NCBI GenBank assembly: GCA_018333655.1
Contig: JAGXTJ010000009.1
Location: 1-32,760 of the forward strand
Length of the DNA: 32,760 bases
From: Bacillota bacterium
GTDB lineage: Bacteria; Bacillota; UBA994
Direction of reading: 5' to 3'
A program made the position numbers and the translations under genes. Positions within the stretch are counted from its first letter, which is position 1. The number at the start of each line of letters is the position of its first letter. This document shows, in pieces, positions 3-5,663 of the stretch. Under the pieces are notes generated by a model. It worked only from the letters and a program-made list of their open reading frames with translations, did not search any database and was not told where the DNA came from.

Positions 3-149
3 CGGAACCAGAAATGGGTTAGTGATATTACTTGCGTCTCAAGCGATGAAGGCTGGCTATATATCGCTGGGGTTATGGACCTCTGTGGACAACCACTCAT
101 AGGTTTGTCCATGAGTAACCGCATGACGAGACATGTATTGTGGAGGTGA
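3..149 (+). pseudogene. IS3-family transposase (OrfB) remnant
   Basis: Reading frame 3 from the window edge encodes a stretch beginning NQKWVSDIT, then DEGWLYIAGVMDL and LSMSNRMTR, and ends at TGA 147-149. This matches the start of the rve (DDE) integrase core of IS3-family OrfB proteins, whose usual form is NxKWVTDITY...GWLYLAxVxDLxSRxxVGWxMSxRMT; the D of the WVSD motif is the first catalytic Asp. About 43 residues are recognisable. The match fades after MTRHVL and the rest of the catalytic domain is missing, so this is a decayed fragment. Its 5' part lies outside the window and could extend further. The ribosome-binding site of the Cys-rich peptide gene overlaps its last codons. Confidence 0.8.
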
Positions 150-154
150 TAAGT

Positions 155-232
155 ATGGTCAAAATAGTCAAGAGGGCGAGGCCTTTGTGCCAAGCCATGG
201 GCTGTGGATGTTTCTGTGGTAAGAGTGCGTAG
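155..232 (+). CDS. 25-aa Cys-rich RiPP precursor peptide (candidate)
   Basis: A 25-codon ORF starts at ATG 155 behind GGAGGTGA at 142-149, among the best Shine-Dalgarno matches in the window, and stops at TAG 230-232. The first ten residues are basic (K3, K6, R7, R9) and would be the leader. The last fourteen carry four Cys at C12, C17, C19 and C21 in a C-x4-C-x-C-x-C pattern with interleaved Gly and one Phe, ending GKSA. The next gene, 64 bases downstream, is a radical SAM/SPASM enzyme with an RRE-like N-terminus, then a GNAT and two ABC exporters. This order is typical of RiPP clusters, so I infer that the peptide is the enzyme substrate, perhaps forming thioethers (ranthipeptide-like). It resembles in concept the Clo7bot/CcpM Cys-rich peptides of clostridia, but no family membership is proven. 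A weak hairpin lies between it and the enzyme gene. Confidence 0.72.
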   Translation: MVKIVKRARPLCQAMGCGCFCGKSA

Positions 233-296: not shown

Positions 297-1616
297 ATGA
301 TACCGTCGAAATACAATATTATAATTCGTGACTTCCCTGAACAGAGGCAGTTGCTTGTGTACAATACGTTGCGGGAAAGTATGGTCGTGGTGGATGACGC
401 CATAGAGGACATCTTCATGTCAGGGAGAACACCTAGGGAGCTTGACCCGGAGGGCCTTGACGCCCTAGTTAGGGAGGGGTTTGTTTACGAGCAAGAAGGG
501 TATGAAAAAAATTTGGTTCAGTACTTGTTTGCCTCCCGAAAGTATTCCAAGAAAGCAGTAGAAACTGTGATTATGACAACTGAAGCATGCAATTTAAGGT
601 GCAAGTATTGCTTGGAAGGGGAACTTATCGCCCCTCGGTCGATGGACGAGCAAACGGCGCATAATGTAGCCCAGCAGCTCATCGAGCGCTTGAAGGCACA
701 TGGAACTAAACGCCTGACGCTAGACTTCTTTGGAGGGGAGCCATTGTTAAACACAACACCCATTGCGGTGATAGCTCCGAAATTAAGGGAGTACTGTGCA
801 AAAAATGAAGTGTACCTTCACATTAGGGTTACAACAAACGGAACCTTGCTCGATTATGAGTGTTATCGTTTGTTGAGACGTCTGTCTGTTGATAAGATTC
901 AGGTGACAATTGATGGCCCGAAGGATGTTCATGATTATCGAAAGCCCCCTATTGATGGGGGGTCTAGCTTTCAATCTATCATTGATAATTTGCAGCACTG
1001 TGACAACGAGCACCCTAAGCTACAAATCAGGCTAAATATTGATGCGCACAACGTAGCTCGTATAAACGAGATATTGCATTACCTTGCTAGTACGGTCAAA
1101 GGATTCATTAACCAGGTGCCCAGTGTGTATGTTGCGCCAACGGAGCTGGCGTTCTGTCCATCCGAAAATTGGAACAGGTATGTTTTTTCCCCTGCCGAAA
1201 AGGCTACTGCCATGGTGAAGATTTGGGGTCAGATGGCAGAACTAGGACTCCCCGTTGCGCACTTGCCTACCTATTACCCGTGTGGTGTCTTAACTGATTG
1301 GGCCACCGTTGTAGGTGTCAGTGGCGAATTATACTGTTGCACTGCTCTAGCTGGAATCCGAGAGTTTCAGCGGGGAGATCTATCTAATGAGGATGCACAA
1401 CCAACGGGTGTTCACTTAGAGTTCCTGACAACGGATGTATGGAATCAATGCTTACATTGCATGTTTTTGCCATTATGCGGAGGTGGATGTAGAGTCCAGT
1501 CTTTGATCCGTACGGGAAATGCCTTTAATCTGGATTGTCAGCGTGAGTTTTTTGAGGGTGCACTTGAGACATACATTAAAGCTAATTACCTTGCCGAATG
1601 TAGGACGGAAATATGA
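297..1616 (+). CDS. Radical SAM/SPASM peptide maturase
   Basis: This is a 439-residue enzyme. Residues 1-85 look like a PqqD-like peptide-recognition (RRE) winged helix, with YNTLRESMVVVDDAIEDIF and LVREGFVYE typical of this class. The radical SAM core begins with C98-NLR-C102-KY-C105, and the SAM-binding GGEP motif is at 146-149. A C-terminal SPASM-type auxiliary-cluster domain carries C329, C347, C348, then C385-LH-C388, C394-GGG-C398, C414 and C435. The architecture is that of RiPP maturases that link Cys thiols to backbone carbons of short Cys-rich peptides (known for SCIFF, ranthipeptide and CcpM-type systems). The start at ATG 297 has GGAGGG at 285-290. It overlaps the GNAT gene by 4 bases, so the two are translationally coupled. 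The gene looks more AT-rich than the pyr region, consistent with acquisition by transfer. Chemistry and substrate are inferred from context. Confidence 0.88.
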   Translation: MIPSKYNIIIRDFPEQRQLLVYNTLRESMVVVDDAIEDIFMSGRTPRELDPEGLDALVREGFVYEQEGYEKNLVQYLFASRKYSKKAVETVIMTTEACNLRCKYCLEGELIAPRSMDEQTAHNVAQQLIERLKAHGTKRLTLDFFGGEPLLNTTPIAVIAPKLREYCAKNEVYLHIRVTTNGTLLDYECYRLLRRLSVDKIQVTIDGPKDVHDYRKPPIDGGSSFQSIIDNLQHCDNEHPKLQIRLNIDAHNVARINEILHYLASTVKGFINQVPSVYVAPTELAFCPSENWNRYVFSPAEKATAMVKIWGQMAELGLPVAHLPTYYPCGVLTDWATVVGVSGELYCCTALAGIREFQRGDLSNEDAQPTGVHLEFLTTDVWNQCLHCMFLPLCGGGCRVQSLIRTGNAFNLDCQREFFEGALETYIKANYLAECRTEI

Positions 1617-2161
1617 GAGGAGAAATACAAGTTTTATTTAGGGCTATAGAAGCAAAGGACGTTGGCCTTATTTGTCGTTGGGCAAACGATGACAGGGTGA
1701 ATGCTGGAGCGACATTTCGAGTTTTTCCATGGTCTGAAAGAATGGTACGCAAGATGATTGACGATGGAAACTTTGAAAGTGATGAAAAGAGGTATTTGAT
1801 AATCGAGACTGCGGAGGGAATAGCTATCGGTATAGCTATTGTCCGTGCAATTAACAGACAAGACCGAAACGCTGAGTTAGGTATTGTCATTGGGGAAATC
1901 GAATACTGGAACAAAGGGTATGGCTGGGCGGTTGCTCAAAAATTGCTCGAACTGTGTTTTAACGGTCTAGGATTAAAACGCATATACGTGTACGTGCCAG
2001 AGTTTAACCGAGCGTCAGGAATAATGGCTGCACAATTAGGGCTCGCCAAAGAAGGGGTACTACGAAAGTGTTTTTATCGAGATGCAAAATTCTGGGATGC
2101 AACCCTTTATTCACTGCTTGACGACGAATGGCAATCCCAAAGAACACTCGGAAAACGGTAA
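1613..2161 (+). CDS. GNAT-family N-acetyltransferase (RimJ/RimL type)
   Basis: This 182-residue protein has the Acetyltransf_3 layout: an N-terminal LFRAIEAKDVGLICRWAND strand-helix, a central beta region (AIGIAIVRAI...AELGIVIGE), the acetyl-CoA-binding helix start WNKGYGWAVAQKLLE (Q/RxxGxG/A type), then RIYVYVPEFNRAS and LGLAKEGVLRKCFYRDAKFWD, typical of RimJ/RimL-like enzymes that use acetyl-CoA to acetylate an amino group. The start codon ATG 1613 overlaps the end of the radical SAM gene, and a GTG-started ABC gene follows 45 bases later. In this setting it could acetylate the peptide (for example the N-terminal amine or a Lys) or protect the producer by acetylating a target. The sequence does not tell which. 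Family assignment is firm; role is inference. Confidence 0.85.
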   Translation: MRGEIQVLFRAIEAKDVGLICRWANDDRVNAGATFRVFPWSERMVRKMIDDGNFESDEKRYLIIETAEGIAIGIAIVRAINRQDRNAELGIVIGEIEYWNKGYGWAVAQKLLELCFNGLGLKRIYVYVPEFNRASGIMAAQLGLAKEGVLRKCFYRDAKFWDATLYSLLDDEWQSQRTLGKR

Positions 2162-2206: not shown

Positions 2207-3958
2207 GTGGCAAACAGACAGGGGATGCACTTTTTTTTGCGGTATGCGAAGAGTCAAATCGCACCTGTAATATTTGTTGTTCTGCTTGTTTTCCTGCAAG
2301 TAACTTTCGGTATACTTCTGGCTCGGCAGTTAGGGCACATTCTTGATGTGGGGCTTCTCGCTAATAAAGCAGAGTTTGGGCAGGTTTTTCTGCTGCTTGT
2401 CGTTTTATGGCTAGGTTCAGATGCAGCGCTGTTTGGTAGGCAGCTCCTGGCGGGTCGCCTAGCCGAAATCACTGTGCATAACTTGCGCGGAAAGGTCGTG
2501 CGGCACATTAGCCGCGCCACGACGGAGTCACTCGAAACTACGCATAGCGGAGACTATGTTTCTCGGCTCGGAGTCGACACTGACGCCATTAGAGTTATGG
2601 TCGCGCGCGAGATGCCGAGCCTTTTACAAGGCGCGCTCGGATTTGTGGCAGCACTTGTAGTTATGCTGGTGGTGTCTTGGCAGGTGACACTGCTAACAAT
2701 CGCTTTGGTCCCCGTCATGATGTTTGTGGCGTCTTTCTTTGGTGGGCGCATGGGGGGGAATCTTAAGGCATGGCAAGGTGGTATGGCTGCCGTTAATGTG
2801 CTTGCACAAGATACTGTCTTAGGGGTAGTTGTGGCCAAGACCTATAATTTGCACGGCTATCTTGGCAAACAGATGAGCTCGTTAGGTAAGCGTGTGGCAA
2901 ACAGCGCCGTGGCCTTAGCTTTTACCAAAGGACAGCTAAATTCAGCCATGACGGTGCTTTCGGTGATGCCGTTCCTTGTATTGTTTGGCGTGGGCGGTTA
3001 CGAGGTTATTAGAGGCAGGCTGAGCCTAGGGCAGCTGCTCATGATGCTAAACCTACTCAACAACCTAACATGGCCACTGCAGGGTATGGCGCAAAACATG
3101 GCGAGCATGAAAGCAGCGATACAGGCGGCGGAAAGGATATTCGCAGTGCTTGCACTACCCGTTGAACCAGTGCAGCAAGGCGCGTGTCCGCCGCTTAATC
3201 GTAAGGCGGAATATGCAGTGGAGTATGACCAAGTTTCGTTTGCTTATCCCGGAAAGGACGCGATTTTGTGTGAGCTAAGCCTAAAAGTTCGCAAGGGGGA
3301 GACATTGGCCCTTGTTGGGGCCAGCGGCTCCGGCAAGAGCACTTTACTTTCGCTTCTGCTCCGGTTTAGGCAGCCAAGCTCAGGCGAGTTGTTGTTTTTT
3401 GGCTGCCTCTATCATGACCTTACCCCCTCCTGCATCCGTGAACATATCGCGTATGTGGCGCAGGAAGACTTTTTCTTGCCGGTTTCCGTAGCAGAGAACA
3501 TCGGCTTCGGGCGTCTTGGCGCTTCACCGCACGAAGTAAGCGATGCCGCACGTAAGGTAGGGGCAGATGAGTTTATAGGCGAACTAGCAGGTGGTTACAG
3601 TAGTCTCCTCAGCGAGAGAGGCGGCAATTTGTCTGGGGGGCAAAGACAGCGTATTTCGCTGGCCAGAGCGGTACTGCGTGCTGCGCCGCTACTGGTGCTT
3701 GATGAGGCGACCGCCGCACTGGATATGGAGTCGGAAAGGGCGGTCTTTGACAAGTTGCTGGCGATGGATGGCACTAAGATTATTGTCACCCATCGTCTGC
3801 ACCTCTTGGAAAAGGTAGACCGCATTGTTGTTTTAGCTAACGGCAGTATTGTGGAAGAAGGCACCCATGCTGTGCTAACCGCGCGGGGTGGTCACTACGC
3901 CAATTTTGTCAGGCATGGGGAGTTTGAGCGCCATTATGGCGCGGCGGGGGTGTCGTGA
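2207..3958 (+). CDS. ABC exporter half-transporter (permease-ATPase), first subunit
   Basis: A 583-residue type IV ABC exporter with an N-terminal six-helix domain (residues about 20-310) fused to an ATPase domain. Visible motifs are Walker A GASGSGKST at 371-379, Q-loop VAQED near 417, signature LSGGQ at 475-479, Walker B LLVLDE at 495-500 and H-loop VTHRL, so the ATPase appears complete. There is no N-terminal C39 peptidase domain: the protein starts almost directly with helix 1. The start is GTG 2207, behind GGGGGGAT at 2193-2200. It lies one base upstream of the second ABC gene start and follows the GNAT gene, so it probably forms a heterodimer with the next protein and exports the modified peptide or confers self-resistance. 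Substrate is inferred from position only. Confidence 0.88.
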   Translation: MANRQGMHFFLRYAKSQIAPVIFVVLLVFLQVTFGILLARQLGHILDVGLLANKAEFGQVFLLLVVLWLGSDAALFGRQLLAGRLAEITVHNLRGKVVRHISRATTESLETTHSGDYVSRLGVDTDAIRVMVAREMPSLLQGALGFVAALVVMLVVSWQVTLLTIALVPVMMFVASFFGGRMGGNLKAWQGGMAAVNVLAQDTVLGVVVAKTYNLHGYLGKQMSSLGKRVANSAVALAFTKGQLNSAMTVLSVMPFLVLFGVGGYEVIRGRLSLGQLLMMLNLLNNLTWPLQGMAQNMASMKAAIQAAERIFAVLALPVEPVQQGACPPLNRKAEYAVEYDQVSFAYPGKDAILCELSLKVRKGETLALVGASGSGKSTLLSLLLRFRQPSSGELLFFGCLYHDLTPSCIREHIAYVAQEDFFLPVSVAENIGFGRLGASPHEVSDAARKVGADEFIGELAGGYSSLLSERGGNLSGGQRQRISLARAVLRAAPLLVLDEATAALDMESERAVFDKLLAMDGTKIIVTHRLHLLEKVDRIVVLANGSIVEEGTHAVLTARGGHYANFVRHGEFERHYGAAGVS

Positions 3959-3959
3959 G

Positions 3960-5663
3960 ATGAAGGCAGATCGTAGCAACACTAGACTGTTGAAATACAT
4001 GCAGGGCAACTGGCTCAAGTTTACCGTGGGTGGGGTAATGTCCATCCTGTCTGAGTCGGGCATCCAGCTTGGGCTTGCGCTATTGCTTAGGGGAATGGTC
4101 AACGCCTCGGTAGGCCGCGATGTTCGGTTGCTGCTCATGAGCCTCGGGCAGTATGGCCTGCTGATTTTTCTTGGGGCTGCCTTACTTCCGCTCGGCCGAC
4201 GTCTCTGTGCAGCGGCTACGGAAATGGCCGTAGCAGAGTGGCGGAACCAAACATTTGACCATGTGCAGAATCTGCCGCTAGCGTCAATCGAAGGGCGACA
4301 TTCGCAGGACCTAGTTTCTCGGCTGACCGCAGACATCGACGTAGCTCGGCGGTTTCTTGGTGAAGAGCTAGTGGATTTTGTCGCGCATGTGGCAAGTGCT
4401 CTTATATCGGCAGCGTTTATTATTATGGTTGATGCTCGGTTTGTAGCGATTCCCTTATTTTTAGTTGTGATGTCAGCTGTTGTGAACCGTGTATCAGCGG
4501 TTCCGCTGCAACGCACGAGCAAAGCCTCGCAGGCGAGACTGGCCGAAATGCATGCCAGTGTTAAAGACGTGGTACAAGGGCAGTGTGGAGCCCGAGGGTG
4601 GGGCGTTGGCGATCTGCTACTGTGCCGAGTTGACGAAAAAAACGACGCCTTGCGGGCTAACAACTTAAAGCTAGTCGGCCTGCAAAGCACTGTGGGGGTA
4701 ATAAGCAATTTTCTTGGCTCAGCCAACTTCCTAGGCGTAGTGGCGCTAGGCAGTTACATGATTTTGCAGCAAGAGTTGACACCGGGTGAGGTTGTGGCAG
4801 TAGTGCAGTTTAGTCAGACCATGGTGAGGCCCTTTAGAAATGCGGGCAGCGTCTGGTCTGCCCTCCAGCAGACACTTGCCGCCGCTGAACGTGTCTTCGA
4901 GCTGCTCGACTCTCCACCCGAGAAATTGCGCTCAAGCGGGAGCGTACCCCAAGATGATGCGGCCGTAGTTTTTCAAAACGTTTCTTTTTCATATGGGGAT
5001 GTCCCGGCTCTTAAAGGGGTATCGTTTAGCGTCCCGCATGGCAAAACTGCCGCTGTCATCGGTGAGAGCGGCGGAGGAAAAAGCACCATTTTTAAGCTGT
5101 TACTTGGCTTGTACCAAGCAGGGGGAGGGTCAATTGCGGTCAACGGCAAAGACATCGGCGAGTATTCGCTGCCTGAGCTGCGCAGCCTGACCGCTTTAGT
5201 TCCTCAGGATGCTTGGCTGTTTACAGGTACCATCTACGACAATATCACCTGCGGCAGAGAAGATGTCGGTATGGCAGAGGTGCAAAGAGCGGCAACAGCG
5301 GCTAACGCCCATGACTTTATAGCGTCACTCCCCGACGGGTATGAAACTGAGGTGGGCGAACACGGGTCAAAACTCTCAGGCGGACAACGGCAACGCATCG
5401 CCATCGCCCGCGCCTTCCTCAAGGACGCCCCAATTCTATTGCTTGATGAAGCGACATCAAGTATCGACAATGAAGCGGAGAGCTTGGTGTGGGCTGGGCT
5501 GGAGAGCCTGATGGCAGGCCGTACCACGCTACTCATTGCGCATCGGCTCACTACAGCCAGAAAGGCCGACGTTGTTTTTGTGGTAACCGACGGCCAGATT
5601 GTCGAGCAGGGGACGCACGCGGAGCTGTTGCGCGTGGAGGGCACTGTAGGCGTTTGCACTTAG
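3960..5663 (+). CDS. ABC exporter half-transporter (permease-ATPase), second subunit
   Basis: With ATG 3960 as start, which directly follows the TGA of the upstream ABC gene and has GGGGGTG at 3946-3952, this is a 567-residue exporter; in-frame starts further upstream would overlap the first gene by 20-70 bases. It has a six-helix membrane domain (about 15-310) and an ATPase with Walker A GESGGGKST at 368-376, LSGGQ at 472-476, Walker B LLLDE at 493-497 and H-loop IAHRL. Both subunits retain the catalytic Glu after Walker B, so neither ATP site is visibly degenerate, unlike many heterodimeric exporters. The adjacent, similarly sized partner suggests a heterodimer that completes the peptide export module. 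The next gene starts 75 bases downstream and is unrelated. Confidence 0.88.
   Translation: MKADRSNTRLLKYMQGNWLKFTVGGVMSILSESGIQLGLALLLRGMVNASVGRDVRLLLMSLGQYGLLIFLGAALLPLGRRLCAAATEMAVAEWRNQTFDHVQNLPLASIEGRHSQDLVSRLTADIDVARRFLGEELVDFVAHVASALISAAFIIMVDARFVAIPLFLVVMSAVVNRVSAVPLQRTSKASQARLAEMHASVKDVVQGQCGARGWGVGDLLLCRVDEKNDALRANNLKLVGLQSTVGVISNFLGSANFLGVVALGSYMILQQELTPGEVVAVVQFSQTMVRPFRNAGSVWSALQQTLAAAERVFELLDSPPEKLRSSGSVPQDDAAVVFQNVSFSYGDVPALKGVSFSVPHGKTAAVIGESGGGKSTIFKLLLGLYQAGGGSIAVNGKDIGEYSLPELRSLTALVPQDAWLFTGTIYDNITCGREDVGMAEVQRAATAANAHDFIASLPDGYETEVGEHGSKLSGGQRQRIAIARAFLKDAPILLLDEATSSIDNEAESLVWAGLESLMAGRTTLLIAHRLTTARKADVVFVVTDGQIVEQGTHAELLRVEGTVGVCT

Follow-up and report, generated by a model that had tools for sequence, protein, structure and literature searches.

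The window, by which we mean the whole stretch of 32,760 nt analysed here, starts at the end of contig C9. The features discussed below all lie on its + strand:

3..149, + strand: part of a truncated IS3-type transposase (Pfam rve domain), in a frame open to the contig edge
142..150, + strand: Shine-Dalgarno sequence GGAGGTGAT, a 9-base match
155..232, + strand: putative precursor of a RiPP (ribosomally synthesized and post-translationally modified peptide), 25 aa, Cys-rich, MVKIVKRARPLCQAMGCGCFCGKSA (sequence read, Shine-Dalgarno sequence, rarity in the genome)
297..1616, + strand: radical SAM/SPASM peptide maturase, 439 aa, with a predicted RRE-like N-terminus (motifs, profiles, model)
1613..2161, + strand: GNAT acetyltransferase of the RimJ/RimL-like kind (Pfam Acetyltransf_3)
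2207..3958, + strand: ABC exporter half-transporter 1, lacking a C39 peptidase; may or may not be part of the RiPP unit
3960..5663, + strand: ABC exporter half-transporter 2, in a frame open from 3888 and of uncertain start; may or may not be part of the RiPP unit

The peptide ORF is real. It runs from the ATG at 155 to a TAG stop at 230-232 (25 codons, read directly in the sequence) and carries cysteines at residues 12, 17, 19 and 21, that is, C-x4-C-x-C-x-C; the start codon, length and Cys pattern are as the sequence-only reading had given them. In unmodified form the peptide has an average mass of 2658.3 Da. The rarity of such an ORF was estimated from a scan of both strands of 361,657 bases of the same genome, in which ORFs were required to have 15-60 aa, at least four Cys and a Shine-Dalgarno match of at least 7 bases at normal spacing. 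Three ORFs were found in total, among which the peptide ORF has the longest Shine-Dalgarno match and the sole one of 9 bases; judging from the other two, about 4e-4 are expected in the 140-nt slot 5' of the enzyme gene on its strand. Across 398 genomes of the phylum, the motif C-x3-G-C-G-C-x-C-G has five occurrences, of which the peptide is one. None of the other four adjoins a radical SAM gene, and they were set aside, one lying within an aldolase-like gene but in a different frame, two in low-complexity frames and one in a longer frame. The peptide has no match in Pfam or NCBIfam and no orthologue of it was found. By eye its N-terminus is similar to a Clo7bot-type leader (MKFIKKPARK), a resemblance that was rejected after comparison with shuffled sequences (about 0.2). 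The gap between the peptide and the enzyme gene measures 64 nt and folds no better than its shuffles; no terminator-like site was found in positions 1-400, and RNA structure and Rfam searches gave no result.

The sequence immediately upstream belongs to the IS3-type remnant. The rve match (E 2.6e-7) covers bases 3 to ~137, or positions 5-50 of a profile of 102, and ends ~5 nt 5' of the Shine-Dalgarno sequence. The insertion element was considered as the carrier of the peptide and rejected, since the homology stops before the Shine-Dalgarno sequence and the remnant is the sole copy in the assembly; its presence is probably the reason why the contig ends here. The contig edge and the remnant place the native promoter and any further upstream precursor genes out of view, and scanning positions 1-400 for promoters gave no sigma-70-like site 5' of the peptide. 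One could thus imagine that the true precursor was located upstream, either off the contig or lost in the insertion event, and that 155-232 is a remnant or a chance ORF. The position of the contig edge and of the IS3 remnant would fit such a scenario, and so would the fact that several relatives have multiple precursors in tandem. Nevertheless, the well-spaced 9-base Shine-Dalgarno sequence, the four Cys in 25 codons, the correct strand and the proximity to the enzyme gene speak against it, a combination of which the genome background predicts only about 4e-4 cases, and this scenario seems unlikely to us.

The gene following the peptide encodes a complete radical SAM/SPASM peptide maturase. 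It contains the radical SAM motif CX3CX2C (CNLRCKYC, residues 98-105; Pfam Radical_SAM, E 7.8e-16), a GGEP motif at residue 146 and, between residues 329 and 414, the complete seven-Cys SPASM motif CX9-15GX4C / CX2CX5CX3C / C (C329-x13-G343-x4-C348 / C385-x2-C388-x5-C394-x3-C398 / C414). The earlier identification of this gene as a radical SAM/SPASM enzyme is therefore borne out by its motifs; the RRE-like N-terminus also proposed then is a prediction of low confidence, in which residues 8-83 adopt the beta3-alpha3 arrangement of RREs (pLDDT ~42-61). The best solved relative by sequence is CteB (5WGG, E 2.5e-19), which is also the best fold match of the AlphaFold2 model (mean pLDDT 67), a match that is partly circular because the input alignment was made of ScfB proteins. 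The top NCBIfam matches are all peptide maturases and all remain below their cut-offs. The best curated score, over the full length, is that of the geopeptide maturase TIGR04280 (214.8 bits for a cut-off of 400), followed by CefB (196.6/600), TIGR04463 (162.3/525), PapB (137.6/340), Clo7bot/CtpM TIGR04334 (117.6/600), SCIFF TIGR03974 (101.6/425) and CcpM TIGR04068 (83.5/500). In a tree that included CtpM, TIGR04463, NlpM and ScfB representatives and contained many long branches, the enzyme stands apart from the CtpM and ScfB groups and has as its sole partner (90/85) a broken homologue from genome G263. The peptide-enzyme pair is in no curated family, but systems of this type are well known.

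Only distant relatives of the enzyme, with 33% identity at best, were found in searches of 398 genomes from the phylum and 154 from one class. A scan of genome contigs with the single protein as query returned no close relatives, and the same scan with a two-row alignment mainly recovered ScfB/SCIFF loci. The regions upstream of the enzyme genes at 14 related loci were searched for ORFs of 15-60 aa on the same strand, within 500 nt, with at least three Cys and a Shine-Dalgarno match of at least 6 bases. Such an ORF is present at five of the 14 loci, against an expectation of ~0.2 that is approximate since its background was taken from the window's own genome only, and at eight when a match of at least 5 bases is accepted. 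As a positive control, a similar script recovers SCIFF precursors 5' of most ScfB genes. The loci falling outside the search definition include one on contig C6 with a SCIFF peptide, one on contig C8 whose Cys-rich peptide is downstream, and the G263 locus, with its enzyme pseudogene. That short Cys-rich ORFs recur at five to eight of the 14 loci makes the pairing of peptide and enzyme a property of the group. The peptide had been said to look like a RiPP precursor, and its position directly 5' of a maturase, in a layout repeated at several related enzymes, agrees with this.

Examples of the upstream peptides are MRIRKGRFSLTKNEIDVCDGCPGRMVCGGKSR (contig C15 of the same genome), MKFIVKPKPVNKDYEPWCPTFCPCRWPNRMV (G008) and a series of ~50 aa (G122). 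The Cys pattern varies between loci: the proposed search upstream of homologues for C-x4-C-x-C-x-C peptides did uncover a short Cys-rich ORF at many of them, but with a different pattern each time, so that the motif is not conserved. The peptide is short, as had been remarked, but its size is not exceptional, given that the peptides at related loci measure 28-55 aa and that some RiPP precursors have fewer than 20 aa (PMC11002830). Loss of the ORF beside a retained enzyme had been named as a sign against the proposal. The closest locus (G263:C29 6764-9893, L022), with an enzyme 33% and a GNAT 39% identical to those of the window, indeed lacks the peptide, but its enzyme gene is itself disrupted by a frameshift and stop codons, with an MFS transporter and the GNAT after it; the locus, whose product pathway looks dead, does not refute the proposal.

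Several loci were noted in the course of these comparisons. Contig C15 of the same genome (2051-3583, L027) encodes a second orphan radical SAM/SPASM enzyme, followed by an ABC ATPase and accompanied by a divergent HTH/TPR-like regulator; its upstream peptide has 32 aa, a 10-base Shine-Dalgarno sequence and the ending CGGKSR. The C-terminal CG(G)KS that this peptide has in common with the window peptide is suggestive only. On contig C36 (6500-7792, L028), the frame of another radical SAM/SPASM enzyme is open but for one TAG, located exactly at the Glu codon of GGEP (YGG*PLL); a peptide of 48 aa that contains Cys is encoded upstream of it, and another enzyme fragment downstream. Contig C8 (2370-2489, L031) encodes MKILREAVRMEQIEQPSEWDCAWFGLCCADGFCCKGITP, a Cys-rich peptide of 39 aa that has a good Shine-Dalgarno sequence and lies 3' of another radical SAM gene and 5' of an ABC transporter. 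The enzyme of contig C6 (L032) is of the ScfB type, is placed with ScfB in the tree and is accompanied by the SCIFF precursor TACRECQTSCQSACKTSCTVGNQVCQNKN. In G122 (C90 4720-5612, L026), the series of Cys-rich peptides (MSWLVQPxDSxSPNDAGCPWLCY...) has strong Shine-Dalgarno sequences and precedes a related enzyme. Finally, a 2.8-kb 'UNVERIFIED' record of the Enterococcus phage IME_EF3 (PQ520162.1, L192) encodes a radical SAM enzyme of the RiPP type, preceded by a Cys-rich peptide; the record is of doubtful origin and may be host DNA.

In RRE-radical SAM-SPASM maturases, the RRE binds the N-terminal segment of the precursor, a 5'-deoxyadenosyl radical abstracts a hydrogen from the acceptor residue, and the auxiliary clusters assist the attachment of the Cys sulfur. 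We consider it likely that 155-232 is the precursor of a RiPP that is thioether-cross-linked by the product of 297-1616, a sactionine being the likeliest bond. We infer from the locus that the peptide is the substrate, together with its division into leader and core, the type of bond, the acetylation and the export. The RRE-like domain would bind the basic N-terminus of the peptide (about MVKIVKRARP), and the enzyme, with its radical SAM cluster and two auxiliary Fe-S clusters, would introduce thioether cross-links into the Cys-rich C-terminal part, LCQAMGCGCFCGKSA, most likely as short sulfur-to-alpha-carbon (sactionine-type) rings.

The nature of the bond can be approached through the residues available. 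Four residues, Asp, Glu, Thr and Asn, have been reported as ranthionine acceptors (PMC8172795, PMC8326336, PMC11002830), and none of them is present among the 25 residues of the peptide. Sactionines (S-Calpha) have been reported on Met, Phe, Ala, Gly, Ser and Lys, among others, and all six occur in the peptide, a composition that no more than permits sactionines; it is the absence of any known ranthipeptide acceptor that makes a sactionine-type bond the most likely one. One alternative is that the peptide is a precursor whose product is a ranthipeptide, with S-Cbeta or S-Cgamma thioethers, as could be expected from the likeness of the enzyme to CteB, PapB and the SCIFF maturases and from the abundance of Cys. 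Yet the required acceptors are missing and every family score is far under its cut-off, so that we hold this outcome to be quite improbable. For the same reasons, the initial label 'ranthipeptide-like or CcpM-like' for the peptide-enzyme pair is not supported, the scores being far below the CcpM, PapB and SCIFF cut-offs and the peptide having no reported ranthionine acceptor.

The rings of streptosactin join residues three positions apart, Cys25-Ser28 and Cys31-Gly34 (PMC8172795). The pairs C21-S24 and C19-G22 of the window peptide have this spacing, which is a lead and not evidence, as every residue is three positions from some other. A bolder reading is that of a new thioether RiPP class, in which one enzyme would fit as many as four Cys rings, all very short and either adjacent or overlapping, into a core of 14-15 residues devoid of polar ranthipeptide acceptors (C12-M15, C17-F20, C19-G22 and C21-S24 being one example), and a dedicated GNAT would acetylate the product; we see only a slim chance for it. 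At the opposite end, there might be no cross-link, the Cys binding a metal or cluster or the enzyme catalysing C-C bond formation, epimerisation, decarboxylation or cofactor formation. SPASM enzymes do catalyse many reactions, this one has no family assignment, and CxCxC with Gly and Phe would be reminiscent of metal-binding stretches. Nevertheless, the related precursors are likewise Cys-rich while their other residues vary, which would follow from Cys being the residue that reacts, and we therefore give this possibility little weight beside a thioether-cross-linked product.

The extent of the gene cluster was considered from its downstream neighbors. The start of the GNAT gene overlaps the enzyme stop, and the protein is of the RimJ/RimL-spermidine acetyltransferase type. 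It would probably serve in the acetylation of the peptide or in the protection of the producer. A relative of it also follows the broken G263 enzyme, where an MFS transporter stands in place of the ABC pair. The GNAT was rejected as a marker of the locus, as its best relative, in G155, has no radical SAM neighbor. That relative, 43% identical, is found in tandem with a second GNAT beside an acyl-ligase-like gene (C105 4031-5147, L213), so that this type of GNAT is found also at other, probable secondary-metabolite loci.

The membership of the ABC pair, which may export the product, is a different matter. The two half-transporters could be the dedicated exporter of a peptide-enzyme-GNAT-ABC-ABC cluster: they are co-directional with the other genes, begin 45 nt past the GNAT, and several related enzymes adjoin ABC exporters. 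However, the pair is 60-62% identical to a side-by-side pair in G007, and half-transporter 1 is 58% identical to a relative in G004, and neither has a radical SAM gene, a GNAT or a peptide of the window's kind alongside; nor do these two genomes have a relative of the enzyme at E 1e-20. Since two relatives have this exporter with no RiPP genes alongside, it is at most a candidate for the export of the product. Moreover, GC content is 45-46% up to ~2000 (peptide, enzyme and GNAT) and 53-56% past ~2500, or 54% against 46% for the ABC pair and the preceding genes. We thus lean against a dedicated exporter, while granting it a reasonable chance. The ABC pair is followed by housekeeping-looking genes, one beta-CASP RNase-like and others pyrimidine-synthesis-like (the latter judged from ORF translations), and no leader peptidase gene was seen. 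The likely unit is made up of the peptide, enzyme and GNAT, a low-GC block adjoining the IS3 transposase remnant, and its GC content and the remnant suggest that it was possibly acquired horizontally.

In sum, the peptide is probably a RiPP precursor, and its enzyme belongs to a radical SAM/SPASM lineage that is so far unclassified. If it is the substrate, it would be among the smaller radical-SAM RiPP precursors, with an enzyme lineage outside every curated model. Lacking the known ranthipeptide acceptors, it would then either extend unnested sactionines to a new lineage or contain a bond of a new kind. Precursor genes of 78 nt also imply that their detection requires enzyme-anchored searches.

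A literature search under the curated family names gave tangential matches only, and the comparison with known systems was made system by system. The layout of a short Cys-rich peptide 5' of an RRE-radical SAM-SPASM enzyme is that of CteA/CteB and SCIFF/ScfB. Contrary to the latter, the enzyme is not in the ScfB clade (101.6 vs 425 bits) and the peptide has neither the SCIFF core motif nor a Thr acceptor. The Clo7bot/CtpM systems share with the window a short N-terminal region followed by a Cys-rich stretch, as well as peptide genes 5' of the enzyme and an ABC transporter 3'. Nevertheless, the enzyme falls outside the CtpM group (117.6 vs 600), the likeness of the leaders is not significant, and the Clo7bot peptides compared have 41-53 aa with polar residues between the Cys, unlike the window peptide. 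The PapA/PapB system of freyrasin also relies on a radical SAM/SPASM thioether maturase, but the enzyme reaches only 137.6 of 340 bits and the window peptide is without Cys-Asp pairs or acidic residues. For CcpM and its Cys-rich peptide system (TIGR04068), the score is 83.5 vs 500 bits. The geopeptide maturase TIGR04280, compared at the enzyme level, gives the best curated score (214.8 vs 400). At the peptide level, the comparison is with the unnested sactipeptide streptosactin (GggA/GggB), which has, as here, a short core and Cys with Ser or Gly three residues on; the window peptide differs in its four closely spaced Cys, on which rings of streptosactin spacing would overlap.
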